Below are positions 8,813 through 22,602 of a stretch of 64,000 nt of DNA, one piece after another. The number at the start of each line of letters is the position of its first letter. The stretch's first letter is position 1. The notes beneath the pieces were generated by a model. The model was not told where the DNA came from, ran no database searches, and was given only the letters and a program-made list of their open reading frames with translations. The translations under genes and the position numbers were made by a program. The DNA is from Pseudoflavonifractor sp. 524-17 (GTDB lineage Bacteria; Bacillota; Clostridia; Oscillospirales; Oscillospiraceae): positions 1 to 64,000 of the forward strand of contig NZ_QWEK01000020.1 of NCBI RefSeq assembly GCF_009935845.1, written 5' to 3'.

Positions 8813-9259
8813 TTAGCGTGACTTCCCCTCATCCCCCTGCTGGCGCAGCACCTCCAGCGCCGCCCGGAGGCAGGCGGGGTAGGGCACTCCCATAATCCCC
8901 AGATTTTCCAAAATAGACAGTCCCTCGTTGGCGATAAAAAACAGCAGCACCGCGGTGCGGGCGTACCCGCCGCTGCGGAGCATCCCGTCCAGCTGGGCCG
9001 CCGCCAGCACCAGCATCAGCTCCGCCCCCTTTCTGCACAGCCCCTGAAAGCCCGCCCTGCTGTCCAGGGCGCCGCTTCTGCTCTTTCCCGACCGGCGGAA
9101 CACCCCCGCCACCGCCACGCCTGTGATATAGTCCGCCGCCATGCACACCACCAGCGTCTGAAGGGCGGTGTCCCACCCTCCCAGCAGGCCGGCCAGCCAG
9201 CTCCCCGCCGCCGCGGCCGCCGCCAGCGCAAGATTTCGTATTGACGCAATCTCTCTCAT
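8813..9259 (-). CDS. phage holin (toxin-secretion/lysis holin family)
   Basis: 148 residues. There are hydrophobic segments at about residues 10-30 and 32-52 (ADYITGVAVAG motif of the Holin_4 type) and at about 85-115. Holins make membrane holes that release phage particles or muralytic enzymes. The ATG at 9259 has GAGGG 4-5 nt upstream. An alternative ATG at 9277 has a similar site. It is the last gene of the phage-like operon, and no endolysin gene accompanies it. Confidence 0.82.
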   Translation of the reverse strand: MREIASIRNLALAAAAAAGSWLAGLLGGWDTALQTLVVCMAADYITGVAVAGVFRRSGKSRSGALDSRAGFQGLCRKGAELMLVLAAAQLDGMLRSGGYARTAVLLFFIANEGLSILENLGIMGVPYPACLRAALEVLRQQGDEGKSR

Positions 9260-9300
9260 GCTTCCCTCTCTTCCCATTTTTCCCTCTTGCATCTATTGTG

Positions 9301-9867
9301 CTACTTCACCAGCTTCTCCAAGGACTCCCAGTCCAGACCCAGCGCCTCGATGCTGTCCCAGGTGTCAAACCGCTCCTCCATCTTGTCCCAGGTGATAAAC
9401 CAGTACACATACTCAATGAGCAGATGGCAGGGGAGGATATCCTCAATAATCCCCCGCATCTCCTCAAAGCCGTCTGGAATCCCCGGCACATCGGGGAAGC
9501 GCACCTCCACCCGCCCCGGGTCGCCGGTCTCACTGGCCACCGCGTTGAGGCCGCACCCCCGCAGATTGTCGTTGATAGCCGCCAGGGTAAAACTGTCCCC
9601 ACCGATGCGCAGCAGGGCGGCCAGGGCGGTGCGCCGGTCCTCCAGGGTATGGGTGACGGGACGCCGGGCCAGCAGGCGCTCTATATTCTCCAGCCCCTCG
9701 CCCTGGGCGGTGGACACCAGCATTTCCCGTTCCAGCTCCTCCAGCGCGGCCGCGCCGCCGTCCAGGGCGCCGCCGATGCTCTCCAGCTCCCCTCCGTTCA
9801 AGCTCCCCTCCAGCCGGTAGATACCCAGAGGGGCCAGCAGCTTTTTCAGATAGTCTCCATAGCTCAT
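9301..9867 (-). CDS. xkdU: baseplate protein, XkdU/YmfQ-like (DUF2313)
   Basis: A 188-residue homologue of the PBSX XkdU / Mu gp48 family, which sits at the inner baseplate beside the J-type wedge protein. Typical features are the N-terminal YLKKLLAPLGIY start and the TLEDRRTALAALLRIGGDSFTL-like middle. Its ATG overlaps the stop of the preceding gene (ATGA), implying translational coupling. Confidence 0.82.
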   Translation of the reverse strand: MSYGDYLKKLLAPLGIYRLEGSLNGGELESIGGALDGGAAALEELEREMLVSTAQGEGLENIERLLARRPVTHTLEDRRTALAALLRIGGDSFTLAAINDNLRGCGLNAVASETGDPGRVEVRFPDVPGIPDGFEEMRGIIEDILPCHLLIEYVYWFITWDKMEERFDTWDSIEALGLDWESLEKLVK

Positions 9868-10928
9868 GCCGTACCCTCCAGCGCGGCAACCGTCAGCTGA
9901 CCCAGCCGGGGCAGCTCTCCCACCGCCAGCGCCATATCCCCCGCCGGGGCCGTCACCGCACAGTTTCCTACTTCCTCCTGGCCAAAGACCAGACTGCTCA
10001 CCTCCGCCCGCAGTACGCTCTTCCCCAGCCGGCGGCCGTCAAACCAGCCCTCTACCGCTCTCCGGACGGCCTGCTGGGCCTCCGCCTGGGTGTATCCCTC
10101 CGCCGGGCGCACTTTTATTGTCAGATCCACCGTGCGCGGCACCGGGGCCTTGACTTTCACATCCACGGCGATCTCCCGCCGGGCCTGGAAGTATTCCTCC
10201 AGCTGTGCCAGGAGGTTCTGGTCCGGTACACCGTCCAAGGTGGACACCACTACGTCCACGCTTCCCTTCCCTCTGGGCCGGGGGATGACCTGGGCGGCGG
10301 CCACCTGCTCAAAGGACATGGCTCCCTGCTCATAGAAGGCGGCGTTGGCGCCGTTGGGCATCCGCCGGAATGTCTCCAGCACCCGCTGGCGCAGGGCCTC
10401 GTCCTCCTCCTCATCCATGCCCCCCAGAAATGGGGCGGGATTGGAACACCGCCGTATCCCCACCGGGGCCACCGCCATGGTCAGTACGGTCTCCGCGGGG
10501 ACATTTCCCGCCTCTCCCGGCTCCGCCGCCTCCGCCGGCACGGTAACAGACGTGGTTCCTGCCCGCAGCACCCCCGCCTGGGTGGTGACAAAGCGCATCT
10601 GCCCCGCCGTCATGCACACCGTTCCCAGGGGAACAGCCAAATCGCTCCCCGACGCTCCGTCCACCAAAAAGCACAGCGTCCCCTGGGCCCGGGCCGCTCC
10701 CCGGCGGGACAGCCCCCGCAGGGCGGCGTGCCGGTCCAGATACTCCCCCTGTGCAGTCTGGGGAAAGCACTGCCGGGCCACCCACTCCCCCTGGACATAC
10801 AAGGCGTGAATCTGGGCCGCCACGGCGTACAGCCGCACCGCCATCTCGCTGGTGCCGCTGATCTGTGTCCCCGTCCGCTCGCACAGGTCCGCCAGCATCC
10901 CGCTGTACAGCTCCTCAATGCTCTTCAT
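9864..10928 (-). CDS. xkdT: baseplate J-like wedge protein (XkdT)
   Basis: A 354-residue baseplate wedge component of contractile tails (P2 gpJ / PBSX XkdT family). Characteristic segments are RLYAVAAQIHALY, the AALRGLSRRGAARAQGT region and the GNVPAETV turn. Length is normal for XkdT. The start at 10928 overlaps the upstream gene by 14 bp. Confidence 0.88.
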   Translation of the reverse strand: MKSIEELYSGMLADLCERTGTQISGTSEMAVRLYAVAAQIHALYVQGEWVARQCFPQTAQGEYLDRHAALRGLSRRGAARAQGTLCFLVDGASGSDLAVPLGTVCMTAGQMRFVTTQAGVLRAGTTSVTVPAEAAEPGEAGNVPAETVLTMAVAPVGIRRCSNPAPFLGGMDEEEDEALRQRVLETFRRMPNGANAAFYEQGAMSFEQVAAAQVIPRPRGKGSVDVVVSTLDGVPDQNLLAQLEEYFQARREIAVDVKVKAPVPRTVDLTIKVRPAEGYTQAEAQQAVRRAVEGWFDGRRLGKSVLRAEVSSLVFGQEEVGNCAVTAPAGDMALAVGELPRLGQLTVAALEGTA

Positions 10929-11292
10929 TGTCTCCCTCCCCTCTGTCCTGCCACTGGGTCTGCGCCGTCATGGCCGTGCCGTTCCAGCGCAAAAACACCT
11001 TCAGCCGGCCCCGGCCCGCCTCCTCTTCCAGGCGCACCTCCTCCACCTCCAGCTCCTCCTCCGGCTCCAGGGCCTGCGCCACATACTGGCGGGCCAGGGC
11101 CAGGCGCTGGGCGGGCTTCACCCGCCCCAGCCGCCAGAGCTGGCTGCCCAGCTCCGGCATCCACGGGAGGGCTCCCCGCCTGGCGTTCAGCCGCAGCAGC
11201 ACCCGCTGCAAGATCTCCTCCCCGCCGGCGACGGTGCGCACGCCGCCCCGCCCGTCCGCCTCATAGTCTCCATCCCGCAGCATCAGATCCAT
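10915..11292 (-). CDS. baseplate protein, XkdS/gp25-like (DUF2634)
   Basis: 125 residues. In contractile tails the gp25/W-like wedge protein is encoded just before the J-like gene, as here. The sequence shows MDLMLRDGDYE and a central LNARRGALPWMPELGSQLWR stretch typical of this family. The start ATG overlaps the upstream TAA (TAATG). A longer frame to 11754 is a shadow of the gene upstream. Confidence 0.78.
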   Translation of the reverse strand: MDLMLRDGDYEADGRGGVRTVAGGEEILQRVLLRLNARRGALPWMPELGSQLWRLGRVKPAQRLALARQYVAQALEPEEELEVEEVRLEEEAGRGRLKVFLRWNGTAMTAQTQWQDRGEGDNEEH

Positions 11293-11699
11293 TACGTATT
11301 TCCTCCGTCTCCATCGTCTCCTCCCTCCGCCGGTGGCTCCAGCGTCAGGGGGACGCCGTTTACCAGCACCTTTGCCGCCACAATCTCCACATTGCCATTC
11401 CGCCGCAGGGCGATGGACGCCCCGCCGTTGCTGAACAGCTGGATCTCCCCCGGCTCCAGGCTGCCGCCGTACCGGGTCCCCGCCACGCAGGGCGTCTCCC
11501 CCTCCTCCCCGGTTTTCAGCACCAGCACCTCTTGCCCTGCCTCCGGCTTCCACTGGTAGCCTCCCGGCCCGAAGACCGGCATTTCCCGCCGCTCTCCGGA
11601 CGAATACACCCCCGCCGGATTTCCCGGCAAGGTCACCTGGCCCACCTGGGCCTGGCTCTCCTCCCGCCGCCCCTGGCGGCTTCTCTGAGACAGCCACAT
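11292..11699 (-). CDS. baseplate spike/gpV-like protein (XkdR position)
   Basis: 135 residues. The central part (VGQVTLPG ... GGYQWKPEAGQEVLVL) resembles an OB-fold of the gpV type, followed by a beta-rich stretch (QLFSNGGASIALRRNGNVEI) that resembles spike repeats. By gene order it corresponds to PBSX XkdR, and it may form the membrane-piercing spike. AAAGGAGG lies 6-8 nt before the ATG at 11699. Confidence 0.65.
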   Translation of the reverse strand: MWLSQRSRQGRREESQAQVGQVTLPGNPAGVYSSGERREMPVFGPGGYQWKPEAGQEVLVLKTGEEGETPCVAGTRYGGSLEPGEIQLFSNGGASIALRRNGNVEIVAAKVLVNGVPLTLEPPAEGGDDGDGGNT

Positions 11700-11744
11700 G
11701 ATTTTCCCTCCTTTCACTTAGAACCCGGCCTATGGTACCGCTTT

Positions 11745-12692
11745 CTATTTCCATTTATTATTCACCATGGTCAGCTGGGTATAGGCCCCCTCTCCGTCCA
11801 CGCCGGTCTCGCACTGGTCCACCAGCCACGTCCCGGACAGCCTGGGCCGCTCCACCCGCAGCTCCACCTGCTCTCCGGGCCACGCCGCCCAGGGGCTGGC
11901 CAGCCGCAGGGTCAGTGTTTTGGTCCCCTCGGCGGACCGGTCCAGCTGATACTGTCCGCTGTACCGCTTGGCCTCATACCCGCTCTTCCGGGGCAGCGTG
12001 AGCACCTTCCGGCTCATGCCCCCCTGCCGGGTGAAGTTCTGGTTAATTACCTTCTGCTCCCCCCGTCCGGTGCGATCCCGCACCAGCACCTGGGAGAGCA
12101 CGCCGTACCGCCGCTCTCCTAGGGCCGCCCATGTAATTGGGGCGGTTTCGTCCAGCACCCGCCGCCCCGAGGCGCCTCCATCCAGGCGCAGCCGTCCCTC
12201 CCGGTCGAACCGGGGCAGCACGCCTCCGTGGTAGCGGGCGAATTCATACACCACCGCCCACTCGCTGCTCCCTGTCTTTACCGAGTAGCCCGGCACCGAG
12301 GGCAGCTTTTCCCCCTGCACCGTCTCCACCCCGTAGGGCTTCACGTGGTTTTGCACAATATCCTCCACCGTGGCCAGCTGGTAGTCCGCCCCTACCGCCT
12401 CATTGTCCAGCAGCAGGGCCGCCATCCCCCGTCCGTGGATATCCAGCCTGGCCCCCCGGCTGTCCCACCGGGTCTCGTACTCATCCACCACGCCGGAGAA
12501 CACCCGCTGCGCCCCTTTCTGAGCGTAGAAGCGGGTGGCGTCTCCCAGCTCCGGGGCGGCGGTCTCGCCCCACAGGCACTGCACAAAAAAGCTGTCGCAG
12601 GGGGCGCCCAGCCCATAGCGGAAGGTCCACCGAAAGGCCTGGGGCAGCGACAGCCGCCGCCCGTCATAGCAGCTCAGCCAGCACTCCATCAT
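11745..12692 (-). CDS. xkdQ: baseplate hub protein, XkdQ-like (gpD family)
   Basis: A 315-residue hub protein related to PBSX XkdQ and the late-control gpD/gp27 family, forming the ring on which spike and tube assemble. Support comes from gene order (after the LysM protein) and from the FSGVVDEYETRWDSRGARLDIHGRG segment type. ATG at 12692 overlaps the upstream TGA (ATGA). A second ATG follows at 12689. Confidence 0.8.
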   Translation of the reverse strand: MMECWLSCYDGRRLSLPQAFRWTFRYGLGAPCDSFFVQCLWGETAAPELGDATRFYAQKGAQRVFSGVVDEYETRWDSRGARLDIHGRGMAALLLDNEAVGADYQLATVEDIVQNHVKPYGVETVQGEKLPSVPGYSVKTGSSEWAVVYEFARYHGGVLPRFDREGRLRLDGGASGRRVLDETAPITWAALGERRYGVLSQVLVRDRTGRGEQKVINQNFTRQGGMSRKVLTLPRKSGYEAKRYSGQYQLDRSAEGTKTLTLRLASPWAAWPGEQVELRVERPRLSGTWLVDQCETGVDGEGAYTQLTMVNNKWK

Positions 12693-13252
12693 TTCACCCG
12701 CACCCGCTCTCCCGGAAAAATCAAATTGGGGTTTTTGATCTGGGGATTCCACCGGATGACATCCTCCAGTGCCGACCCGTACCGCCGTGCCAGTCCCCAC
12801 AGGTTCTCCCCCCGCCGTACTGTGTGCCACACCCCGCCGGCGGAGCCGGAAGGGGCCGTTCCACCCGCCGGATACTCAGTCTTCAAGCTGTCCGTATATC
12901 CGCCATAGCTCTCCCAGAAGGTAAATGCGTAGCGCACATAGTCGCTGCGGGGCTCCTGCTGAAGGGTCAGCTCCACAAAGTAAGCATTGGCGCACTGCCA
13001 CACCGGGTGAACCAGCAGTCCCGGCCCCTCCCTGTAGAACACGCTGGCCAGCTGCTTGAACTGGCTGTAGGCGTCCGGGCCAGTAAACTCCCCCTCTCCC
13101 CGCATCACCCGCCGCCCCGGCCCCAGGTCCTGAAGGTGATACCGCCCAAAGGGCACTTTATTGGCCGCCATGGACCGCTCGTAGTCAATCCGATAGGTCC
13201 GTGGGTTGTGGGGCCACACGAAGTCCTTATACCGCATGGGTTCCAATCTCAT
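12689..13252 (-). CDS. xkdP: LysM-domain tail protein (XkdP)
   Basis: 187 residues. The N-terminal domain of about 120 residues is of the XkdP type. A C-terminal LysM module at about 140-187 (VRRGENLWGLARRYGS ... IFPGERVRVK) may bind peptidoglycan or stabilise the hub. Of the two ATGs (13258, 13252), the second has correct spacing to GGAGGAGG. In PBSX-like phages the tape-measure gene precedes xkdP, but here the 277-residue protein does. Confidence 0.85.
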   Translation of the reverse strand: MRLEPMRYKDFVWPHNPRTYRIDYERSMAANKVPFGRYHLQDLGPGRRVMRGEGEFTGPDAYSQFKQLASVFYREGPGLLVHPVWQCANAYFVELTLQQEPRSDYVRYAFTFWESYGGYTDSLKTEYPAGGTAPSGSAGGVWHTVRRGENLWGLARRYGSALEDVIRWNPQIKNPNLIFPGERVRVK

Positions 13253-13267
13253 ACCCATCCTCCTCCG

Positions 13268-14101
13268 TCAAAACAGGGGAAATCCCCCGTCATACCGCCG
13301 GGCGTCCCGCTGGAAGAGGCGGTCCAGCCCCTCCGGGGACAGGGAAGTCTCCCCGGCCCCCGCCGTCCCTCTGTCCAGCGTCCACCGGACGGACCGGCTT
13401 TGAATCTGCCTGCTGTACTGGGCGGCGGAGCGCCGCTGCCCGGCCTGCCGGGCCAGGGCCGTCCCGCGGATGCGCTCCATTCCGGCGACCTCCGCGGCCC
13501 CGCGGACCTGCTCTATCCCGGCGATCTCCGCCGTCCCTGCTCCTTCCTCCCCGGCGGACACCGCCTCCGGCAGCATTTCTCCCCGCCTTGCTCTGTCTCC
13601 AACCCTTCCGGCAAGCTCCCCGGCCCGAACGGCGGTCTGGAGGGCCTCTTTTCCCAAAAAACCGGCGGAGCCTGTGCGCTCCTCCGGCGTCTCTCTCCGC
13701 TCCCACGCGTTCTCTCTCCTCTTCGCCCTTTTTGGGGCGGCATCCGGGGCGCTCCCTGACAGGGCAGCGGGGATCTCCTCGCCCGCCGCCCTCTCCCGGG
13801 ACTCCCTGGGGGCCCTCTCCCCCTGTTTTTCCCAAACAGGGGCCCAAAAAGCCCACGCCTCCTCCGGATCCGGCTCCCCATCTGAATGGTCTTCCCTTGG
13901 CAGGCCCTCTCTCCGCCCTGCCTCTGGGCCATATTCTCTTTCCCGGCCTTCGGAACGCGCCTCTCCCGCCGCCGCGGATTTGGGCGGAGCCGCTTTTGTC
14001 TCCGCCCCGGGTCCCAGGACCGCCCCGATCTCGGGAAATTCGATGGTCTCCTCCTCCTGGGGCAGCTCCGCGTCCAGCAGCGCCTCTAAATAGTCAATCA
14101 A
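13268..14101 (-). CDS. 277-residue low-complexity protein in the tape-measure position
   Basis: A 277-residue protein rich in Ala, Arg, Glu and Gly with no recognised domain. The first 25 residues (YLEALLDAELPQEEETIEF) look ordered, residues 30-130 look disordered, and 140-260 could be helical. In contractile phages the gene right after the frameshifted tail chaperone encodes the tape measure, usually several hundred to over a thousand residues. None is present, so this may be a very short tape measure or an unrelated filler. The TTG start at 14101 overlaps the stop of the -1 frameshift product (TTGA), suggesting coupling. Confidence 0.65.
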   Translation of the reverse strand: MIDYLEALLDAELPQEEETIEFPEIGAVLGPGAETKAAPPKSAAAGEARSEGREREYGPEAGRREGLPREDHSDGEPDPEEAWAFWAPVWEKQGERAPRESRERAAGEEIPAALSGSAPDAAPKRAKRRENAWERRETPEERTGSAGFLGKEALQTAVRAGELAGRVGDRARRGEMLPEAVSAGEEGAGTAEIAGIEQVRGAAEVAGMERIRGTALARQAGQRRSAAQYSRQIQSRSVRWTLDRGTAGAGETSLSPEGLDRLFQRDARRYDGGFPLF

Positions 14102-14735
14102 AGCGCCGCCCCCCGTCCCAGGGCCTCAAACCGCTCCTGGTCAAACGCGGCGTTGTGCCCCCCCTCCTGCTGGCTGACGATGCTGCCGCACCCGGGACAC
14201 CGCCCCTCCAGTGCTTCCGCCCGGCAGGCGGGGCACAGCTGTCCCAAGGCCTCCTCGTCGTCCAGCATCAGGTTGAGGATACACCACAGATAGTCCCGCT
14301 CCTTCATCTCTCTCACCCGCGCCTCGCTGGGCAGGGCGCTGAAGGTCCGGAGCACGCGCCAGCGGAGCCGGGCGTCCGGCGCGTGCTCCAGGCTTTTTTT
14401 AGGGTTTCGGCCTCCGCCTCTCCCTGCATAGAGGGGTTCTCCTCCCGGTCGAAGGCGGCCCACTTTTCCGCCAGGGCGGCGATCTCCCGAGCGGTCAGCC
14501 CATCCAGCGCGGCCTGTCCGTTTTCAAACAGGGGGGTTCCCTCCCGTTCCAGGGCCCGGGCCAGCAGACAGGCATTGGCGCACAGGGCCCGCTCCCGACC
14601 GTCTCTGGCCAGACTCTCTGCCTCCCGCCGGGCCTCCAGCGTCTCTCCGGCGCTCAGCAGGCGCAGCGCCAGCCCATCCTCCAACGCCAGCCGGTCCGCC
14701 CCAGCCAGCAGCTTTGTCCAGCGATTACCGCTCAT
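14098..14735 (-). CDS. tail assembly chaperone, long -1 frameshift form (gpGT-like)
   Basis: Reading 114 codons from the ATG at 14735 and slipping back one base at 14394-14400 gives a 212-residue protein. Its last 98 residues come from the -1 frame and end at 14098. This extension has a CPAC...CPGC zinc-ribbon-like motif near its end and a helical segment (REMKERDYLWCILNLML) before it. In long-tailed phages, short and long chaperone forms made by frameshifting coat the tape-measure protein and recruit tube subunits. The -1 stop overlaps the start of the next gene, which argues that the extension is translated. A stand-alone start at 14463 in that frame has no ribosome binding site. Confidence 0.8.
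14313..14735 (-). CDS. tail assembly chaperone, short form (XkdN position)
   Basis: The 0-frame product is 140 residues. It is mostly helical up to residue 114 (SLARDGRERALCANACLLAR), after which the 0-frame tail is a Pro/Arg-rich run likely to be just read-through of the overlap. Position after the tail-tube gene identifies it as the gpG/XkdN-like chaperone. Its ATG overlaps the tube gene's stop (ATGA). Confidence 0.75.
   Translation of the reverse strand: MSGNRWTKLLAGADRLALEDGLALRLLSAGETLEARREAESLARDGRERALCANACLLARALEREGTPLFENGQAALDGLTAREIAALAEKWAAFDREENPSMQGEAEAETLKKAWSTRRTPGSAGACSGPSAPCPARRG
14349..14400 (-). promoter_or_regulatory. -1 ribosomal frameshift signal (slippery A7 and stem-loop)
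   Basis: The slippery heptamer A AAA AAA (14400 to 14394, in frame as CTA AAA AAA GCC) is followed after 4 nt by GGAGCACGCGCC (14389-14378). That segment pairs perfectly with 14360-14349 across a 17-nt loop. Slip site, spacer and 12-bp GC-rich stem match the standard layout of programmed -1 frameshifting. Confidence 0.85.
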
Positions 14736-15121
14736 AGGGCCATCTCAATCCGCTTGGTGGCCACAATGGTAATCTTCTCCACTACCATGGCCCCCAGGGC
14801 GCCGGTCTCGCTGATGTCGCTCCACTGGCACCCGGAGTAAATCACCTTCCGGTCCGGCTTGCAGATCACCAGGCTGAAGTCCTTCAGCTCATAGAAATTC
14901 AGTCCGTCCCGAATGGCCTCGTCGGTGGCGTACAGCCGGGTCAGCTCCAGCACATGGCTGCGCTGTCCTGGGATGGAGGCCACCGGCTCATCCTCGCCGA
15001 AGGCCTCCACAATCTGGCTGCGCTTTGTGGTCCGGGCGGCGTAGCTCTGCACCACCGCCACCTTCCGGCCCTCCACCTCCAGATAGATATCGCTGCTGGT
15101 GGGAAATCCCGCGATTTTCAC
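14732..15121 (-). CDS. tail tube protein (XkdM-like)
   Basis: 129 residues, beta-rich, directly after the sheath gene, which is the invariant position of the tail tube in contractile tails. Segments such as VEKITIVATKR and SLVICKPDRKVIYSGCQW fit a tube fold. The start is GTG at 15121 with AAGGAGG 8 nt upstream. The longer frame to 15211 overlaps the sheath gene and is rejected. Confidence 0.78.
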   Translation of the reverse strand: MKIAGFPTSSDIYLEVEGRKVAVVQSYAARTTKRSQIVEAFGEDEPVASIPGQRSHVLELTRLYATDEAIRDGLNFYELKDFSLVICKPDRKVIYSGCQWSDISETGALGAMVVEKITIVATKRIEMAL

Positions 15122-15135
15122 TGTACATTCCTCCT

Positions 15136-16170
15136 TTAAACTGTAATGTGGGCGCTCAGCCAGATCTGGTTGAGCCCGTGGGTCACTGAGAAGGCGAACT
15201 CCACCCGGCACACGGTGGGGTTCTGTGGGTCCGCCTGGGCGGTCACGCCGTCATAGCTGTTGATGATCTCCCGATTCACCTTGTTTTCCAGCTCCAGCAC
15301 CACCTGGGACCGGATGGCCCCCCGGCTCTGCTCGTTGTTTTTGGCCCGGCGGAACTTCACCCGCAGGGCCTCCCGCACGGTGGGAATCACGTCGTCCACA
15401 ATCCGGATGGTGCTCAGTTCCCGCCAGGTGGTGTCGGACGCGCCGCCGGTCTTGGTGCGGGTGGTCACCCCGCGCACCACGGTATATATGCCGCCGCTCT
15501 CCTCCACCGGGGTCACGCCCCCCTGGACCAGCGTGTCAATCTCCCCGTCGGTGTACCGGGCGCTCAGGCCGTTCAGGCCCTTCAGCTCCGCCCCGCCCAG
15601 GGGCACCGCCGGGTCCCGTTCCCCGGCGATGGCTCCTGCCACGGCGGCGGCCAAAGCGGCGCCGTTGTCCTCCCCCGCCGCCGGACCCACCAGCACCACC
15701 CGCTCGCAGTTGAGGCCCGCCGCCCGCTGGGTCAGGGCCTGTACGCTCTCCGCGCCGCCGCTCACCACGGCGATCCGCTCCCGCCGGGCCTGGGACGCCT
15801 CCATCACGCATTCCCGCAGGGCCTGCTGCACCGTCAGCTCCGTGCTGTCGCAGGTGAGGATTGCCGCCCCCTCCGCGCTTCCCAGCAGAGAAAATGCCTG
15901 TGTGTAGTCCTCTCCGGCCACCGGCACGGCGTACACCGCCGCCGCTCCGTTCTGGAACAGCAGCTTGACCAGCCCGCTCAGCGCCGCCTCCTCGCCGAAG
16001 GTCTCCGCCGCCTCTTCAAACCGGCTGAAGTGGTACAGGGCGCCGGCCTCCCCGGTTTCGCACTGTGCCGCGATCCCCACGGCGTAAGCGCCGCCGCCCC
16101 CCTGCACAATGGAGGACGCGTCATAGGAGGAGTACACCCCCGGCCGCTCATGGCTTGTCATTTGATTCAT
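15136..16170 (-). CDS. xkdK: contractile tail sheath protein (XkdK-like)
   Basis: A 344-residue sheath subunit. The N-terminal RPGVYSSYDASS is the typical sheath start. The C-terminal part (NKVNREIINSYDGVTAQADPQNPTV ... AFSVTHGLNQIWLSAHI) matches the conserved sheath C-domain. It is short for the family, consistent with a minimal particle. The start overlaps the previous gene by 4 bp. A sheath proves the tail is contractile (myovirus-like). Confidence 0.9.
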   Translation of the reverse strand: MNQMTSHERPGVYSSYDASSIVQGGGGAYAVGIAAQCETGEAGALYHFSRFEEAAETFGEEAALSGLVKLLFQNGAAAVYAVPVAGEDYTQAFSLLGSAEGAAILTCDSTELTVQQALRECVMEASQARRERIAVVSGGAESVQALTQRAAGLNCERVVLVGPAAGEDNGAALAAAVAGAIAGERDPAVPLGGAELKGLNGLSARYTDGEIDTLVQGGVTPVEESGGIYTVVRGVTTRTKTGGASDTTWRELSTIRIVDDVIPTVREALRVKFRRAKNNEQSRGAIRSQVVLELENKVNREIINSYDGVTAQADPQNPTVCRVEFAFSVTHGLNQIWLSAHITV

Positions 16171-16667
16171 GCTCTGTTGACTCCCTTCACTTCAAAATCC
16201 AGGAAGGCGCCTCCCTCATCCGCCGCAGCGTAGAGGTACGCCTGGCACACCGCCCGCACCGGACAGCGCCATCGATCCGCCTCCCCGTCGTAAACGCATT
16301 CTCCGCAGGAGAACTCCTTTATCTTCAGCCCCGCCGGCCCGCCGGTGTGCAGGGCCTGGGCCAGCCGGTCGAAGGTGCGCTCCACCTCCGCCGCCCCCTC
16401 TCCCGGCCCCGCGTAGAGGTCCACGCCGAAGGTAAGGAGTACCCGCCGGCCGTACAGCTCCACCCACCGCTTTGTCTGCTCGTCGTACCGCTCCCCCAGG
16501 TAATCCCGGAACCCCGCCGGGCCTCCCTGGACCTCCCGCAGGGACACCGCTGCCAGACCGCCCCTGCTCTGTTTTCGGCTCTCCTCCGGCCAGGCGCTCA
16601 CCGCCCGCACCCCCTGCTCCTCCAGGAAAGCGGTCAGACACTCCCGAATATCATCCAGTCCCGCCAA
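16167..16667 (-). CDS. tail completion/neck protein (XkdI/J position)
   Basis: 166 residues. By position before the sheath gene it should be a tail terminator or neck protein. It contains LLTFGVDLYAGPGEGAAEVERTFDRLAQAL and two cysteines in FSCGECVYDG, reminiscent of minor tail proteins of PBSX-like elements. The start is TTG at 16667, just after the upstream TAG, with AAGGAGGGG about 6 nt before it. Function is inferred from order only. Confidence 0.6.
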   Translation of the reverse strand: MAGLDDIRECLTAFLEEQGVRAVSAWPEESRKQSRGGLAAVSLREVQGGPAGFRDYLGERYDEQTKRWVELYGRRVLLTFGVDLYAGPGEGAAEVERTFDRLAQALHTGGPAGLKIKEFSCGECVYDGEADRWRCPVRAVCQAYLYAAADEGGAFLDFEVKGVNRA

Positions 16668-16668
16668 G

Positions 16669-16995
16669 CTACCCCTCCTTGTCCTCCGGCGATACAACAG
16701 CCCACCAGTGGGAGAACTGCGCTCCCGCCCGGATGGCCTGGGCCCGGCGCACCCGGTAGCTTCTCCCCCCGCACACCACCCGGTCGTTCCACGCCACCGG
16801 GACCTTAGCGCTGCCCAGGTAGAGGAACCGGCCGGTGCGCCGCCGGCCCAGGGGAGTGGGGACCTCCTGGGCGTCCCCACCTCCCTTCTCCAAAATGGGC
16901 TGGAGCAGGGCGCGCCCCTTTTGGCAAGCCCCTTCCCGCCAGACCTCCACCGGCCGGCCGTACTCCTTCAGGATCCATTCAAACCCGCCGTTCAA
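16669..16995 (-). CDS. head-tail joining protein (XkdH-like)
   Basis: 108 residues. The TTG start at 16995 overlaps the upstream TGA (TTGA), with AGGGGGT ahead of it. Content such as GRFLYLGSAKVPVAWNDRVV and SYRVRRAQAI fits a small beta-barrel joining protein of the FII/XkdH kind, and the gene sits between connector and neck genes. No specific domain can be claimed. Confidence 0.6.
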   Translation of the reverse strand: MNGGFEWILKEYGRPVEVWREGACQKGRALLQPILEKGGGDAQEVPTPLGRRRTGRFLYLGSAKVPVAWNDRVVCGGRSYRVRRAQAIRAGAQFSHWWAVVSPEDKEG

Positions 16996-17348
16996 CCTCT
17001 TACCCCCTGAAAGCAAAACCCTTCGTCTCTTGCATAGGGGGCCAGCAGGCGCTCCGCCTGCTCCCGCAGGGCCGCACCCCGCCGGCCGCCCCCGGTATCA
17101 ATGCTCAGATCCCCGGCGGAGAACCGTTCCACCGCGCCCCGCTCACTCCTCAGCCCCAGGGCCAGGCAGGCCGCCGCCAGGGGGAAGACAGGGCAGTCCT
17201 CCGGCCCCGTCCCCGCCCTGAGCCGGGGGGCCAGCTCTTCCGCCGCCGCCCAGCACAGCGCCGTTATCCCGTCCCGCTCCTCCCGGTCCAGGCCGCCCAG
17301 CTCCACCGCCAGGGCCAGGATTTTCTCCTCCAGCTCCGTGCTATACAT
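16992..17348 (-). CDS. head-tail connector protein (gp6/YqbG-like)
   Basis: 118 residues, helical (STELEEKILALAVELGGLDREERDGITALCWAAAEEL-type helices, here cited as spanning residues 3-38). Position after the major capsid gene matches the adaptor that docks on the portal ring. The ATG at 17348 overlaps the capsid stop by 8 bp. Confidence 0.65.
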   Translation of the reverse strand: MYSTELEEKILALAVELGGLDREERDGITALCWAAAEELAPRLRAGTGPEDCPVFPLAAACLALGLRSERGAVERFSAGDLSIDTGGGRRGAALREQAERLLAPYARDEGFCFQGVRG

Positions 17349-18372
17349 GCAGCACCCTGGCCGCGTCGGCGAAGAGCTTGGCAAACCCGCTGACGCTGGT
17401 AATGGCCGCCCGCTCCAGCTGCCGGTCGATGAGCTTGTCGTACTCCACCATTACCTCGCTGCCCTGCACCATCTCCAGGGCATAGTTCCGGTCCAGGCCG
17501 ATCATCGTGCCGCTGCCCAGTGCGGAGGTGCGCAGCAGCGTCGCCCCCAGCGGGGTATTCAGTCTGCCGGTCCCCTGGAAGTTGAGTCCCGTCAGGGGAT
17601 TCTGAAACTCCTCCAGCTTGAGCAGCGCCCGCATCACGTCTCCGGATACCAGCAGCGTATTCATCTCATAGGGGTCAAACTGGGCCCAGAAGTCCACCAG
17701 GCTGTCATAGCTCAAGGTACCTTTGGCGCCGCCGATGGGGCTGGTGCCGATGGTATAGCTGGGCGCCGGGTTTCCGTTGCCGTCTCCGTTCTCCAGCACG
17801 TCGATGGCGTCCTCCAGATGCATCCGGTTGATGTGCGCGCCAATCTGCCGCAGGGTAACGGAGAACAGGTCCAGCTTCTGATAGCGGATGGCCTCATAGG
17901 GGGCCACCAGCATTCTGCCCCGCTTGTGCAGCCGCACCAGATTCTCCTGGCTTCTCACCCGGGTCTGTGGGATTTCCGCCCCTTCTGCCACATGGCGCAG
18001 CTCCTTATGCTTTTTTTCCGGCACGCAGGCGATAGACCGGTAGTCCATCCCGTCGAACTGGGTCACCGCCGCGGTCATCTGCGGCAGCAGATTGCTCTCC
18101 TCCATGCCCTGGCGCACCGCTCTGGCGATGTACTCAGGAAAAAGCACCGCGGACTGGGCGCTGGCGAAGAACTTCTCCACCACGTCGCTCCCCTTGCCCT
18201 TCACCTTGATGTCGAAGCGTTTGAGCTGCCGCTGATAGGCGTCCAGCCCCTCCATGGCCGTCCCCCGGTAGCTCTCGGAGGGGTCCTCCCGCTCCAGCAC
18301 CTGGGTAAAGGATCGTCCCGCCTCGTTGTACATGCCCTTTTCCAGTCTCACTCGCTCACACTGATAGCTCAT
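17341..18372 (-). CDS. major capsid protein
   Basis: A 343-residue HK97-fold-type capsid subunit of the PBSX XkdG kind. Position between the decoration-like protein and the connector, length, and segments such as ANTLLVSGDVMRALL-like (residues about 238-252) and GTMIGLDRNYALEMVQGSEV support this. ATG at 18372 with GGAGGAG about 6 nt upstream. The TTG one codon earlier is less likely. Confidence 0.82.
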   Translation of the reverse strand: MSYQCERVRLEKGMYNEAGRSFTQVLEREDPSESYRGTAMEGLDAYQRQLKRFDIKVKGKGSDVVEKFFASAQSAVLFPEYIARAVRQGMEESNLLPQMTAAVTQFDGMDYRSIACVPEKKHKELRHVAEGAEIPQTRVRSQENLVRLHKRGRMLVAPYEAIRYQKLDLFSVTLRQIGAHINRMHLEDAIDVLENGDGNGNPAPSYTIGTSPIGGAKGTLSYDSLVDFWAQFDPYEMNTLLVSGDVMRALLKLEEFQNPLTGLNFQGTGRLNTPLGATLLRTSALGSGTMIGLDRNYALEMVQGSEVMVEYDKLIDRQLERAAITSVSGFAKLFADAARVLHV

Positions 18373-18390
18373 CAATCTCTCCTCCCTCTC

Positions 18391-18726
18391 TTACAGCAGC
18401 ACCACAGCGGCGCCCTCGCCGTCGGCCTGCACCACCAGATAGTCCGCGCCGTTCTCGTCCGCCGCCATGCCGCCGCTGCCGTCGGCGGACAGCTTGGCCC
18501 ATCCGATGCCCACGCCTGTGGCGGGGACCGTTGCAAAGCCTCTCACCTGCACCGCGGCGCACCCGTTCTTCACCGCCGCGGCCACGCCGGCCGGCCGGTC
18601 ACCGGCGGCGCAGGGGGCTGCCGTGCCGTTTCCGCTCACCTTTACCACCTGGCCCGCCTTCACATTTTCTTCCGCCTCAAAGGTGGCCATCACTTCTCCA
18701 ATCCCCTCAAACGAAATTCGCTCCAT
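18391..18726 (-). CDS. putative capsid decoration/stabilisation protein
   Basis: A 111-residue, Gly/Ala-rich beta protein (AGQVVKVSGNGTAAPCAAGD, GVGIGWAKLSADGSG) between protease and major capsid genes. Small proteins here in other phages cap or stabilise the capsid. Its start is preceded by AGGAGGAGA. Assignment is by position and composition. Confidence 0.6.
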   Translation of the reverse strand: MERISFEGIGEVMATFEAEENVKAGQVVKVSGNGTAAPCAAGDRPAGVAAAVKNGCAAVQVRGFATVPATGVGIGWAKLSADGSGGMAADENGADYLVVQADGEGAAVVLL

Positions 18727-18748: not shown

Positions 18749-19666
18749 TTAAATACGAAATCCCTCATCTGCCTGCGTCTCCAGCCCCTGGCTGCTCTGG
18801 TAGCTCAGCTGGCTTCCCGCCGGATAGAGCTGCTCCAGCCGGTCCTCATAGGCGGCTTTCAGGGCGGCCAGCTCTCCCTCCTCCAGCCGGTCCGCGATGC
18901 GCGCCATGGTCTCATGGCTCAGTCCCGGCTCTGCCAGGCCGCCCAGCCGGGCCACCTCCCGGCGCAGCTGGGCCAGATAGCGCCTTCCGGTCTCCGCCTC
19001 CCGCTCCAGCCGCTTCAGCTCGGGCCTGGCCTGGACCAGCTCCTTCCAGCTCATATCCATATGCTTGAGCACCCCTGCCTGTCTCTGGGCTGGCACAGCC
19101 ACAAAGGACCACTCATAGGCGTCGATCACCCCGGTCAAATCCGCCCAGCAGAGCTGGCCGCCGTAGCGCTGTCCCTTGATATGTGCGCACCGCCCCCGGT
19201 CGTGGATGTCCTCGCCGCACACGGAGCACACTGCCCGTTCCACGCCGCATCCGATGGACACCTCCCGCTTGATGCCCCCCTCAATCTCTGCGATGAGCTC
19301 CTCATTGCCTGGGGTGCGCAGCATATAGGCGTACCCTTTCAGGTAGCAGTAGGGCTCTCCCGCCGCGGTGCGCGCCTGCTCCTCCCGCACCAGCTCGGCG
19401 CGGTAGATCCGGGCCACCTGCTCTTTGGCGCTCCAGTTGTGGTCGAACACGCCGCACTTGCCCACAAACCGCTCCGCCAGCTCCTCCAGGGAGGCCAGTG
19501 GAAACCGCTCAAAATCCCGGTCCACCTCGTTGTCGCACAGCCGCACGCAGAAGGTATACACCTCCTCCTCCGTCAGCTCCTTTTTGCTCTGGGCGTGAAT
19601 CAGCGCCAGATCCGCCGGACTCACCGTGCCGCTGCCGCCCACGCCCGCCTCTTTGATAATGTTCAT
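18749..19666 (-). CDS. phage capsid protease/scaffold-like protein (XkdF-type)
   Basis: 305 residues. Residues about 30-190 resemble the XkdF-like serine-protease domain (YLKGYAYMLRT, VDRDFERFPLASLEELAERFVGK) and contain a CSVC...C metal-binding-like cluster (ERAVCSVCGEDIHDRGRCAH). The C-terminal third is a predicted coiled coil (WKELVQARPELKRLEREAETG), suitable as scaffold. ATG at 19666 overlaps the portal stop (ATGA). The longer frame to 19819 is a shadow. Confidence 0.72.
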   Translation of the reverse strand: MNIIKEAGVGGSGTVSPADLALIHAQSKKELTEEEVYTFCVRLCDNEVDRDFERFPLASLEELAERFVGKCGVFDHNWSAKEQVARIYRAELVREEQARTAAGEPYCYLKGYAYMLRTPGNEELIAEIEGGIKREVSIGCGVERAVCSVCGEDIHDRGRCAHIKGQRYGGQLCWADLTGVIDAYEWSFVAVPAQRQAGVLKHMDMSWKELVQARPELKRLEREAETGRRYLAQLRREVARLGGLAEPGLSHETMARIADRLEEGELAALKAAYEDRLEQLYPAGSQLSYQSSQGLETQADEGFRI

Positions 19667-20829
19667 GTCCGCTTCTCCCCCTCCAATTCGTTCTCCATCC
19701 TGGTCTTTCGGGCCTGCTCCCGGTAGAGCTCGGCTCTGGCCTCCTCCACCAGATCCTGCAAATTGATGTCCTCCCACACCACCTGGATTCCGCTGCCGAA
19801 GCCGTGTACTCTCAGCCACAGCTCACAGATCCGCTCCACCACCGGGGTCAGTGTGCGCCGTATGGCGGTGATCTCGCTGGTCATCATATCCGCTTGCTGT
19901 GCGCTCATCCGCTCGGTGGTGGACCAGCTCAGCCCCAGCAGGAAGGGCGGAATACCTGTCCGAGCCACCAGCTGTTCCAGAATCTGCCGCACCGGCACCT
20001 CGCTGTCCAGGACCTGGTTGTCCGCGCCGATGACCTTGATGTCCACGTCTCCCACCGCCACAAAGTCTCTCACGCTGCCTTGCTTCCCCGCCTGCATGGC
20101 GGCGGACCACTCTCTGGCGATCTGAGCGCCCCGCTCCTGGGCTCTTCCCCGCTCCAATCCGTCCCGCTCCGGCCTGCACACCACGGCGAAGCGCACATTG
20201 CCCATCCGCTCCCAGTTCATCCCGGTGGCCTGATAGATTTTCAGCAGGATTTCCACCAAGAAGGGCATGGACCGCAGCAGGGACACCCCATAGGGGCTGT
20301 CCGTCTCCGGCTGAAAGGGCGTAAACAGCAGCAGATCCTGCCTTGGCAGCGGCTGTGGGACTCCGTTTTCTCCCCTGACGCACAGGGTAAAGTCCAACGG
20401 GCTGTCCCCTTCTTTTATCATCAGATCCGCCGGATTTCCGCACAGCAGGGCGGCAATCTCTGTATGCCGCCGGTCCAGCACCAGCTCCCCCACGCCTCTG
20501 CCGCAGGTGAGCATGGCGTCCAGATAGCTGTCCAGAAAGGACTGCAATCCCCTCTGTCCCCGCCCGGTGTTCACTGTGCGCAGAAATTCCGCCAGTCCTG
20601 GCGCCGCCGCCGGGTCCTCCGCCTGCACCGCCACCCCGCCCACCAGCCGCACCAGCTTCAAAATGGCGGCGTCCACCACCGGCACCGCCTCCCGGATGCT
20701 CCGGTACAGGGCGATCTCCCCATTGCGCAAGGGCACGTACCCATCCAGCAAAGCGAAGGGGTGCCGCTCTGCCTCCCGCAGCTGTACCGCCGGCGCCTCC
20801 TGCTTTTTCCCCTTTTCAAACCACCTCAA
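19663..20829 (-). CDS. phage portal protein
   Basis: A 388-residue portal subunit forming the dodecameric DNA gate at the capsid vertex. Support: position between large terminase and protease, plus PBSX/XkdE-like segments (HPFALLDGYVPLRNGEIALYR, the GIPPFLLGLSWSTTERMSAQQADMM helix region near residues 300-325). The start is TTG at 20829 with GGAGGG about 10 nt upstream. Confidence 0.83.
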   Translation of the reverse strand: MRWFEKGKKQEAPAVQLREAERHPFALLDGYVPLRNGEIALYRSIREAVPVVDAAILKLVRLVGGVAVQAEDPAAAPGLAEFLRTVNTGRGQRGLQSFLDSYLDAMLTCGRGVGELVLDRRHTEIAALLCGNPADLMIKEGDSPLDFTLCVRGENGVPQPLPRQDLLLFTPFQPETDSPYGVSLLRSMPFLVEILLKIYQATGMNWERMGNVRFAVVCRPERDGLERGRAQERGAQIAREWSAAMQAGKQGSVRDFVAVGDVDIKVIGADNQVLDSEVPVRQILEQLVARTGIPPFLLGLSWSTTERMSAQQADMMTSEITAIRRTLTPVVERICELWLRVHGFGSGIQVVWEDINLQDLVEEARAELYREQARKTRMENELEGEKRT

Positions 20830-20848: not shown

Positions 20849-22105
20849 TCAGAACACCTGCCGCTCCACGCACAGGGCCTCAAACTCCGTCTCCTCCTCC
20901 CGGCCGGCGATGGTGGCGGCGAAGTAGCGGATGTCGTCCATGGCGTGGTCGTGTTCTTTTCTCACCTGGTCGTCCCCCGCCCGCTCGTCCCAGCAGTACA
21001 GGGAGAACTCCCGAATGGCGTCGCCGCATCCCTGACAGATCACCAGTCGCCCGGTCTGGAGGAGCTCCGCCGTCCTTCGGATCCCCCTCAGCACCTGATT
21101 GTCCGCCTTCACCACATTCCAGCCCTCCCGGCGGAGGATTTCAATAAAGCTGGCCGCCGACGGATCTACCACCACGGTGTCCACGCTCCGCTCCCCCGCC
21201 AGCCGGGCCAGGTCCTGGGCATACTCCCCATCGGTCTTCTGCCGGCCTGTCTTTCCCGCGTCGTAGTAGTACTCCTTTACCCGGTACCACACTCCCTCCC
21301 GCAGGCCCCACAGCCCGAAGGAGGCCGGGTTGCGGGTCCCGTAGTCGCAGGAGACACACCACCGCTCCATGGGTCCCTGCGGTACCGGCTTGACGTAGCT
21401 GCTGTCGAAGAAGTCGTATACCGCCCCCTGGGCGGCGGTCCACTCTCCCAACACAAACCGGCGGTAGAAGGTGCCGCTGTAGGTGCGCGCATACCGCTCC
21501 CGCACCTGTCTGGACAGGCTGGGGTTGTCCTCCATGGTGAAGTGGAGGTACAGCGCCCGCCGCTCCTCGCTCTTTTCAATCCACTCCCGGTAAAACCAGT
21601 GCTCCGGCCCCGCCGGGTTGCAGGAAAACCAGCTCTTGGCTCCCTGGACGGAGCACCTGGCCAGCGCCTGCTCCACAAAGGACCGCGGCATAAGGGCCAC
21701 CTCATCCAGCAGCACCCCCGCCAAAGTGACGCCCTGGATCAGCCCGGCGCTCCCCTCGTCCCGCCCGCCGAAGAGATAGAAGGTGTTGTGCCGCCTCCCC
21801 CGCCGCACCTCGATCACGTTCCGGCTTACCTTCTCCTCACACTGGAACCCCAGCTGTCGCAGGGCGGGCAGCACCTCCCGGAGCAGGTTGCGCCGCAGGG
21901 CCCCCACGCTCTTGCCGCACAGGGCGAACTGTTCCTCCCGAAAGCGCCCCATGGCCCAGCAGAAGAAGGACAGCCCCATGCACAGGGTCTTCCCGCTGCG
22001 CACCGCCCCGTCGCAGATAATAGCCTCCCGGTCCCTCCAGGGGGAGCGCCCGCACCACCAGGTCAACACCGTCCGCTGTTTGGGGGAAAAGGATTTAAAT
22101 TTCAT
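20849..22105 (-). CDS. PBSX-family terminase large subunit
   Basis: A 418-residue DNA-packaging motor. The N-terminal ATPase has Walker A GAVRSGKT at about residues 33-40 and Walker B LLDEVALMP at about 130. The C-terminal nuclease domain carries acidic residues (SCDYGTRNP, VVVDPSAASF). Length and motifs are complete, so packaging could be functional. It overlaps the small upstream gene by 11 bp. Confidence 0.92.
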   Translation of the reverse strand: MKFKSFSPKQRTVLTWWCGRSPWRDREAIICDGAVRSGKTLCMGLSFFCWAMGRFREEQFALCGKSVGALRRNLLREVLPALRQLGFQCEEKVSRNVIEVRRGRRHNTFYLFGGRDEGSAGLIQGVTLAGVLLDEVALMPRSFVEQALARCSVQGAKSWFSCNPAGPEHWFYREWIEKSEERRALYLHFTMEDNPSLSRQVRERYARTYSGTFYRRFVLGEWTAAQGAVYDFFDSSYVKPVPQGPMERWCVSCDYGTRNPASFGLWGLREGVWYRVKEYYYDAGKTGRQKTDGEYAQDLARLAGERSVDTVVVDPSAASFIEILRREGWNVVKADNQVLRGIRRTAELLQTGRLVICQGCGDAIREFSLYCWDERAGDDQVRKEHDHAMDDIRYFAATIAGREEETEFEALCVERQVF

Positions 22106-22388
22106 TCAACCCCTCCGCCGCCTTTTCCAGCGCCTGAAAGAACCCGCCCGCTTCCTCCGATTCCCGGCTCAGCTCCAGCAGCCGCTCCAGGGTCTTCAGC
22201 CTGTCGTTGAGCTTCACCTCCACCCCACCGTTTCCGCTCCGCCTGAGCTCGGAGAGCATCATCAAATCCATCCGGTCGATCTCCTCCAGCTGTCCGCCGT
22301 CCAGGAAGGCCAGCTTTACCACATCGTTGGGCCTGCTCTTTGCCATCTGTTCAATCTGCCGGAGTACGGTTTTCCGTCCATCTCTCAT
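22095..22388 (-). CDS. putative terminase small subunit
   Basis: A 97-residue, charged helical protein in the slot of the DNA-recognising small terminase, overlapping the large-subunit gene. It lacks the clear helix-turn-helix of XtmA-type proteins, so recognition may differ or be absent. ATG at 22388 has AGAGGTGAGG about 9 nt upstream. A GTG at 22403 is an alternative. It is the first gene of the phage-like operon. Confidence 0.55.
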   Translation of the reverse strand: MRDGRKTVLRQIEQMAKSRPNDVVKLAFLDGGQLEEIDRMDLMMLSELRRSGNGGVEVKLNDRLKTLERLLELSRESEEAGGFFQALEKAAEGLNEI

Positions 22389-22456
22389 GGCGATTTGCCT
22401 CACCTCTTTTCACCCTTGCTTCCCAACCCCCAAAAGTTGCACGTCTCCGTACATCT

Positions 22457-22539: not shown

Positions 22540-22602
22540 AGGAAAAACCGCTCTCTCCGTTTGTGTGTGATCCAAGGACAGGGCGGAGATGGAGGGATTT
22601 TG

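Follow-up and report, generated by a model that had tools for sequence, protein, structure and literature searches.

A short protein in the tape-measure slot of a contractile, gene-transfer-agent-like cluster of Oscillospiraceae, a candidate reduced tape measure

RESULTS

Gene content of the cluster

The window, by which we mean the whole 64,000-nucleotide stretch of Pseudoflavonifractor sp. 524-17 DNA that was analyzed, contains a compact minus-strand cluster that runs from a small terminase gene (positions 22095 to 22403) to a holin gene (8813 to 9292); all genes below lie on that strand unless stated otherwise. The small terminase (TerS; 102 amino acids) matches PF03592 in part and is followed by a large terminase (20849 to 22105; Pfam and PHROGs) and a portal (19663 to 20829; phrog_30703, E 8.9e-163, with a Pfam match below cut-off). 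The next protein (18749 to 19819) occupies the head-protease position and, from that position, may be the protease; it matches phrog_16951, a family of unknown function, and no functional family. A small virion structural protein (18391 to 18726; PHROGs) and the major capsid protein (17341 to 18375; Pfam and PHROGs) follow, and then three genes (16992 to 17384, 16669 to 17016, and 16167 to 16880) that match no named family and that, by position and conservation, may encode head-tail connectors.

The tail genes begin with a contractile sheath (15136 to 16170), matched by PF04984 and PF17482, both above their cut-offs, and by PHROGs, and with a tube protein (14732 to 15211; phrog_27038, E 1.5e-60), the family used for our searches. 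Downstream of the chaperone and of the gene that is our subject lie a LysM plus DNA_circ_N protein (12689 to 13258; Pfam and PHROGs), which we take to be XkdP-like and whose start anchored the slot comparisons, and a gp44-like baseplate hub (11745 to 12830; Pfam and PHROGs), presumably XkdQ-like. A region with a gp46/gp25-like baseplate protein (10915 to 11754) matches PHROGs baseplate families and Pfam families below their cut-offs, and it probably holds two genes in different frames. The open reading frame (ORF) called from 10915 to 11754 begins with a low-complexity segment, apparently read out of frame, and an ORF from 11292 to 11717 may be a real gene upstream of gp46/gp25. The cluster ends with a baseplate J-like protein (9864 to 10928; Pfam), a Mu gp48-like tail protein (9301 to 9867; Pfam E 1e-5, below the curated cut-off; phrog_521, E 1.5e-20), and the holin (PF05105, Pfam). 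Where the window has the holin, two relatives, L021 and L023, have an ORF of 152 to 153 amino acids directly after gp48, which may encode a receptor-binding protein.

No integrase was found among the flanking ORFs that were scanned, a part of the total; these encoded B12-binding, SpoIVB peptidase, zinc-ribbon, ABC transporter, and LacI regulator proteins or were unmatched. Beside the terminase end of the cluster and on the opposite, plus strand lies an ORF (22561 to 24354) whose 597-residue product has zinc-ribbon domains.

A predicted frameshifted chaperone

Two overlapping frames lie between the tube gene and the slot. The first (14313 to 14735; 140 amino acids) is assigned as the G-like part of a tail assembly chaperone on its position and on a structure model of an in-frame homologue, and it has no Pfam or PHROG match of its own. 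The second, T-like part (14098 to 14463) is in the -1 frame and carries a zinc-ribbon-like CxxC...CxxC motif, and its stop overlaps the start of the slot gene. Between 14350 and 14424 we predict a programmed -1 frameshift signal, an A-run (AAAAAAAG) followed by a strong stem-loop.

Relatives share the arrangement. Among 149 distinct slots, G and T parts occupy different frames in 80, and in every one of these T is read in the -1 frame; in the others the parts are fused in frame (12), or there is G only (33), T only (1), or neither (23). An A-run, either AAAAAAAG or AAAAAAAAAC, sits at the G/T junction in 74 of the 80 two-frame slots and in 1 of the 12 fused ones. In the AAAAAAAG class, 45 distinct sequences share a stem of 11 consensus pairs in which 11 of 495 cells are broken and some changes are two-sided; the pair at columns 23/49 is A-U in 20, G-C in 17, and G-U in 8. 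The 75-nucleotide stretch in the window folds at -37.4 kcal/mol (z -2.45), and the same stretch has z of -3.52 and -2.14 in L024 and L029. Because the same bases also code for protein, conservation of the stem is support for the signal rather than proof. Moreover, the consensus fold of the AAAAAAAAAC class (25 sequences) is weak, at -3.0 kcal/mol, and we therefore confine the stem-loop claim to the AAAAAAAG class.

The structure model of the fused homologue from L021 is confident in its G part and poor in its T part. When the model was compared with the PDB, the top two matches were chains of the HK97 tail assembly chaperone, both weak (E 0.54 and 0.72), and when it was compared with viral structures, named tail assembly chaperones ranked third and fourth (E 0.007 and 0.038). 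When the chaperone alignment was compared by sequence with solved structures, no chaperone came up and the matches were all to zinc ribbons, for example, Nop10 (best E 0.03). We conclude from the sequences that the two overlapping frames have the arrangement of a G/GT-type tail chaperone with a predicted -1 frameshift. In phages, G/GT chaperones precede the tape-measure gene.

The slot protein

The slot itself holds a 277-residue protein, here called X (13268 to 14101), recognized as an ORF with a TTG start and conserved ends; on the plus strand the same interval contains stops. The first-pass annotation described a short, charged, low-complexity protein in the slot after the chaperone, and both the minus-strand ORF and its neighbors bear this out: X is 34% E, D, K, and R, 18% proline plus glycine, and 18% hydrophobic. 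No Pfam family matches X at E of 0.01 or below, the best PHROGs match is nonsignificant and of unknown function (E 0.079), and no known tape-measure family in either collection matches it by sequence or profile.

Conservation of X is confined to its ends. We found 93 nonredundant X references, of which 60 were printed and 50 of these aligned; the alignment is conserved at both ends only, with a start consensus of M.DYL..LL and an end consensus of LDR.F.RDARRYDGGF.LY. Under a lenient pattern that allows variants, the C-terminal motif is at the same place in 137 of the 149 distinct slots and absent from 12. The conserved ends are our grounds for treating X as a real gene and for rejecting a chance open frame in this DNA of 63% GC. 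A full-length match to X at E of 0.01 or below occurred in 2 of 60 relatives' genomes, its own included, and in tblastn searches X matched 11 of 16 fetched loci, for the most part with its last 20 or so residues. In L035 and L031, one ORF in the slot seems to join a chaperone-like start to the X C-terminal motif.

The middle of X behaves differently from the ends. Proteins with a DYL-type start (97 proteins, 84 distinct) range from 107 to 289 amino acids, with a median of 188; lengths are given for this type only because starts in the "firstATG" class are uncertain. Among cultured strains, X has 164 residues in P. phocaeensis An569, 188 in Pseudoflavonifractor gallinarum DSM 107456, 265 in Flavonifractor sp. 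An306, and 289 in P. phocaeensis An507. In close relatives, X varies in length and sequence and the tube protein is nearly constant. Likewise, omega ranged from 0.23 to 1.1 for X and from 0 to 0.15 for the tube across 15 informative pairs, several of which have a locus in common (16 pairs were compared, and one had no differences). From omega, the end-only alignment, and the poor full-length matching, we conclude that the ends are kept and the middle drifts. Across the family, the middle is 21% proline plus glycine and 17% hydrophobic residues. AlphaFold places helices at residues 4 to 11, 79 to 94, 151 to 172, 190 to 241, and 256 to 271, the last being the conserved C-terminal motif (LDRLFQRDARRYDGGFPLF); confidence is low (mean 62, pTM 0.27), about 115 residues are predicted helical, and 98 of 277 have a pLDDT below 50. 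The middle of X is thus fast evolving and, by prediction, largely disordered.

Tape measures usually carry one or more hydrophobic segments. None of 150 X proteins reached a 19-residue hydropathy mean of 1.6, the membrane-like level (highest, 1.43), and the only comparator, a 706-residue tape measure from the order-level prophage L271, reached 2.76. In TP901-1, not all hydrophobic segments of the tape measure are essential (PMC5099701).

The slot is short in all scorable relatives

The first-pass annotation had asked whether close relatives carry a long tape-measure gene at this position, which would indicate a recent deletion, and had called for a comparison of lengths across related loci. 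We examined 177 loci and left out 14, one without a tube match and 13 without a LysM match. Among the 163 that could be scored are the window, the identical locus L147, and some that had been fetched twice; together they reduce to the 149 distinct slots. The distance from the tube end to the LysM start, chaperone included, is at most 1,593 bp in 163 of 163. Because the gap is never larger, no scored relative has a long tape measure at the slot. The 16 fetched loci keep the same gene order over the length that their contigs cover.

Distribution and inheritance

All 10 genomes of the genus that we examined, among them that of the window, carry the sheath gene, as do 16 of 60 relatives' genomes. 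The tube gene was found in 133 of 400 genomes of the family, representing 48 of 106 genera, and was absent from 267. It matched only once in 132 of the 133 carriers; the sole exception is the genome with L031, a second, diverged copy of the element. The six weakest tube matches (E 2.5e-23 to 3.6e-12) may come from sheathless types, as that of genome G227 (L277) does. A scan of genome contigs with the tube alignment gave 277 relatives, and the best 80 that were kept are labeled as Flavonifractor, Pseudoflavonifractor, Intestinimonas, Lawsonibacter, Oscillibacter, and comparable genera or carry no classification. The same scan of viral contigs gave 163 relatives, of which the best 80 were kept and many are cuts of about 12.5 to 14.3 kb. 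Distant tube relatives are underrepresented as a result of both selections. Phage records rarely contain the tube: 2 of 50,697 did, both unannotated fecal contigs.

In the 26 of 30 genomes that could be used, distances computed from sheath plus tube agree with those from rpoB (Mantel r 0.807, p 1e-4), and the trees of the two, judged by eye, have most clades in common. The patchy distribution (133 of 400) means that losses or some transfer must be assumed.

The small terminase points in a similar direction. Its frame is open for only 104 codons, and its product covers positions 64 to 128 of the 141 in PF03592 (E 2.4e-4; 22.2 bits versus a cut-off of 26.1). The L021 homologue covers positions 61 to 129 of the small-terminase profile, also below the Pfam cut-off, and TerS of three sheathless loci, L258, L259, and L260, covers positions 1 to 126, 1 to 126, and 3 to 134, respectively, above it. 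We take profile positions 1 to 60 to be the DNA-binding part, and the window TerS appears to lack this N-terminal part. Taken together, the cluster is best read as a vertically inherited, contractile, gene-transfer-agent (GTA)-like element of the Oscillospiraceae. The contractile cluster seen in the first-pass annotation stands, and its phage setting would give way to this reading.

Many sheathless relatives seem to keep a short peptide in the slot

The large terminase of the window has a match at E of 1e-90 or below in 83 of 394 genomes of the order. Forty stretches were fetched from these 83 genomes, with genes called by profiles built for this analysis. Four had a sheath match (L268, L270, L271, and L272); 15, L272 among them and some cut by contig ends, had no LysM match and were unused; and 22 joined the phage-collection records L258 and L259 in a sheathless set of 24 loci. 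In each of these 24, the capsid and LysM profiles matched and the sheath profile did not, and the distance from capsid end to LysM start is 741 to 1,687 bp, which leaves little room for a sheath. Baseplate J follows in 20 of the 24. The tube matches in 11, as a fragment only in L274 and L282, and a diverged tube may be missed elsewhere. Within the fetched stretch, L260, L261, L262, L265, and L299 have head genes only. L260 (MT835508.1), named "Bacteriophage sp." in GenBank, looks like a piece of bacterial chromosome: by eye, its head-only cluster lies between apparent electron-transport genes and apparent genes for ribosomal proteins and RNA polymerase.

Just upstream of LysM, 18 of the 24 loci have, by eye, a short ORF of about 28 to 50 amino acids that ends like LSE.LERDSRRY; some listed starts give longer readings. 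Of the others, L263 has the peptide by profile only, those of L275 and L276 are degenerate, and L269, L277, and L286 have none in the slot, with the position of LysM doubtful in L269 and L277. A profile built blind from 131 C termini of the contractile family only was run on six frames of the sheathless loci (383 kb). All of its nine best matches (E 2.2e-5 to 0.99, five below 0.01) lay no more than 50 bp upstream of where LysM starts. The best match of a locus lay in the slot in 13 of 24 loci, some of them close relatives, versus about 0.5% by chance, and outside the slot in the other 11. Given this outcome, homology of the peptide to the X C terminus is well supported for some loci and plausible for the rest. 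Sheathless relatives seem to keep little more than the conserved C-terminal end of X.

Two sheath-bearing loci differ. In L268, from another family, the slot ORF has 130 residues and no motif. L270 (G043:C5), whose main link to the window is its large terminase, is a PBSX-like cluster that has a 279-residue ORF in the slot (8901 to 9740 of the oriented locus). The end of this ORF, AEGVHR, resembles the AEGVHA of the 706-residue L271 tape measure, over few residues, and L270 may be a second, independent shortening of a tape measure.

DISCUSSION

How a tail is assembled around a 277-residue slot protein is the question raised by this cluster. We think it probable that X is a shortened tape measure of a vertically inherited, contractile, GTA-like particle, with its C terminus docked on the hub and a function as anchor or tether. 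The C-terminal helix would dock on the hub/LysM complex at the tail tip, the LysM plus DNA_circ_N protein being the likely docking site, and the short N-terminal helix would face the neck. The variable, largely disordered middle would join the two ends. During assembly, the G and G-T pair made by the frameshift, as in phage G/GT systems, would hold X and the tube subunits. We infer the docking because the C termini of diffocin tape measures are anchored on the spike (PMC11329794). Across the order, the slot would run from 107 to 289 residues with a sheath to a peptide of about 28 to 50 residues with the C-terminal motif without one.

The gene position of X, between the chaperone and the hub and baseplate genes, is that of a tape measure, and the protein is neither long nor mostly helical. 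Moreover, no sequence is detectably common to X and any characterized tape measure in Pfam and PHROGs, which speaks against a reduced tape measure, as do the few full-length matches of X, its fast evolution, and a middle without the hydrophobic segments seen in the L271 tape measure. The first-pass annotation held that X replaces the tape measure. A short protein does occupy the slot, but the conserved ends suggest a tape measure that was reduced and not a substitute of separate origin.

The length of the tail is likewise a matter for caution. A rise of 0.145 to 0.15 nm per residue applies to a helix that is fully extended. For TP901-1, where tape-measure length is proportional to tail length, zero tail length falls at 127 residues (PMC5099701). 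For 277 residues, the arithmetic gives 42 nm without an intercept and about 22 nm with the 127-residue intercept; for the median X of 188 residues, it gives 28 and 9 nm. The tail of near 40 nm first proposed from 0.15 nm per residue thus assumes a full helix and falls to about 22 nm with the published intercept (PMC5099701). Because the middle of X is predicted to be largely disordered and its length shifts quickly among relatives, the full-helix rule is not applicable as stated, and no predicted tail length in nanometers is reliable. With X short and its middle largely disordered, the tail would probably be short, and X would act as an anchor and tether more than as a rigid helical ruler.

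X could instead be a true ruler, its number of residues setting a tail of about 16 to 43 nm for 107 to 289 amino acids if fully helical. The proportionality published for TP901-1 (PMC5099701), the tape-measure slot with its chaperone, and the longer slot product in sheath-bearing than in sheathless clusters make this a serious minority possibility. A middle rich in proline and glycine, much of it predicted to be disordered, is an awkward ruler, however, and X differs in length and sequence between close relatives in which the tube is almost constant.

Another alternative concerns the particle rather than X. The element might be a PBSX-like killing particle, with a head and a contractile tail and no delivery of DNA, in which a short tail only punctures. 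Its gene order is PBSX-like, and a holin adjoins the cluster. PBSX is described as GTA-like without DNA injection (PMC12946183), so neither a packaging head nor vertical inheritance separates a GTA from a PBSX-like particle. A TerS seemingly without its DNA-binding part, as in the gene transfer agent RcGTA (PMC6854486), leans the other way but does not decide against a killing particle, which we regard as less likely than not.

We consider it more doubtful still that X is an unrelated plug or scaffold that binds the hub and came to occupy the slot, tail length being set by another part or not set. The lack of a matching tape-measure family would fit, as would the persistence of the motif in clusters without a sheath and, in some cases, without a detected tube. 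Against it, X has the same slot, the same neighbors, and a G/GT-type chaperone upstream, and the resemblance between the L270 and L271 ends hints that a tape measure can be shortened with its C terminus kept. An unrelated insertion into the slot is less likely because the C terminus recurs in the same slot of sheathless clusters. Finally, that this genome alone recently lost or eroded a long tape measure is, for practical purposes, ruled out: every one of the 163 scorable loci has a short slot, and we found nothing in favor of such a loss.

Work on how tape measures fix tail length, and on which of their parts cannot be dispensed with, usually proceeds by truncating the gene of a single phage. 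If X is a reduced tape measure, the cluster represents a contractile GTA-like element whose tape-measure-like protein is minimal, together with a natural length series: related clusters have rulers of differing length, and sheathless ones seemingly have the C-terminal part alone. Tails compared across cultured strains could then show which residues count and how a contractile tail was reduced during domestication, and the tail-poor relatives make the link between ruler and tail testable. The analysis also singles out one defined cluster as a possible vehicle for host DNA between common gut bacteria.

Comparison with known systems

Among CC-licensed PubMed Central papers, we found no published description of this cluster or of X. 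The closest gene order is that of PBSX of Bacillus subtilis, which runs sheath, tube, chaperone, tape measure, LysM protein, hub, and baseplate. The window has this order, and both hosts are Gram positive. The PBSX tape measure XkdO, however, is long, whereas the slot considered here encodes 107 to 289 amino acids.

Diffocin offers the likeness on which the docking of X is modeled. Its tape measure CD1366 has its C terminus anchored on the spike at the tip and its N terminus at the collar, and the tape measures of 80alpha and T5 are resolved as trimers over 20 and 35 C-terminal residues, respectively (PMC11329794). A tip-anchored C terminus, published for CD1366, is what we propose for X. CD1366 differs in being a full-length coiled-coil trimer, in a bacteriocin with 32 sheath-tube layers (PMC11329794).

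RcGTA is a domesticated particle with a short tape measure. This protein, g11 (Rcc01694), comprises 113 + 83 + 20 residues, about 216, and the tail has five tube discs and a length of 49 nm (PMC7296036). Its TerS starts with a coiled coil and appears to lack an N-terminal DNA-binding domain (PMC6854486). The X cluster resembles RcGTA in the short putative tape measure, the apparently domesticated particle, the short C-terminal helix, and a TerS seemingly without the DNA-binding part. It differs in that RcGTA tail proteins are siphovirus-like, whereas the X cluster encodes a sheath, and in that the RcGTA ruler is largely helical with repeats of 12 to 13 residues, whereas X is predicted to be largely disordered. 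No family match in Pfam or PHROGs links X to g11.

Finally, GTA-like packaging has been reported from DNA of fecal particles; of 25 such events, 17 fell in Ruminococcaceae and 3 in Oscillospiraceae, in Onthomonas (PMC12946183). Four metagenome-assembled genomes were searched there, with one strong candidate cluster, FpGTA of Faecalibacterium prausnitzii; for the Oscillospiraceae, no cluster is named (PMC12946183). We suggest the window cluster as a candidate for that agent. A wider proposal, which we find tempting and hold only tentatively, is that gut Clostridia contain an order-wide GTA-like family whose tape measure became smaller as the tail did, going from about 290 amino acids in contractile members to a peptide of about 30 with only the hub-docking motif in sheathless ones. 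The packaging agent of Oscillospiraceae known from fecal particle DNA would then be the contractile branch of this family. Compared by description only, FpGTA and the window cluster are alike as domesticated packaging clusters of related gut bacteria, and they differ in the tail: FpGTA is described as podovirus-like with no identifiable tail (PMC12946183), whereas the window cluster has a sheath.
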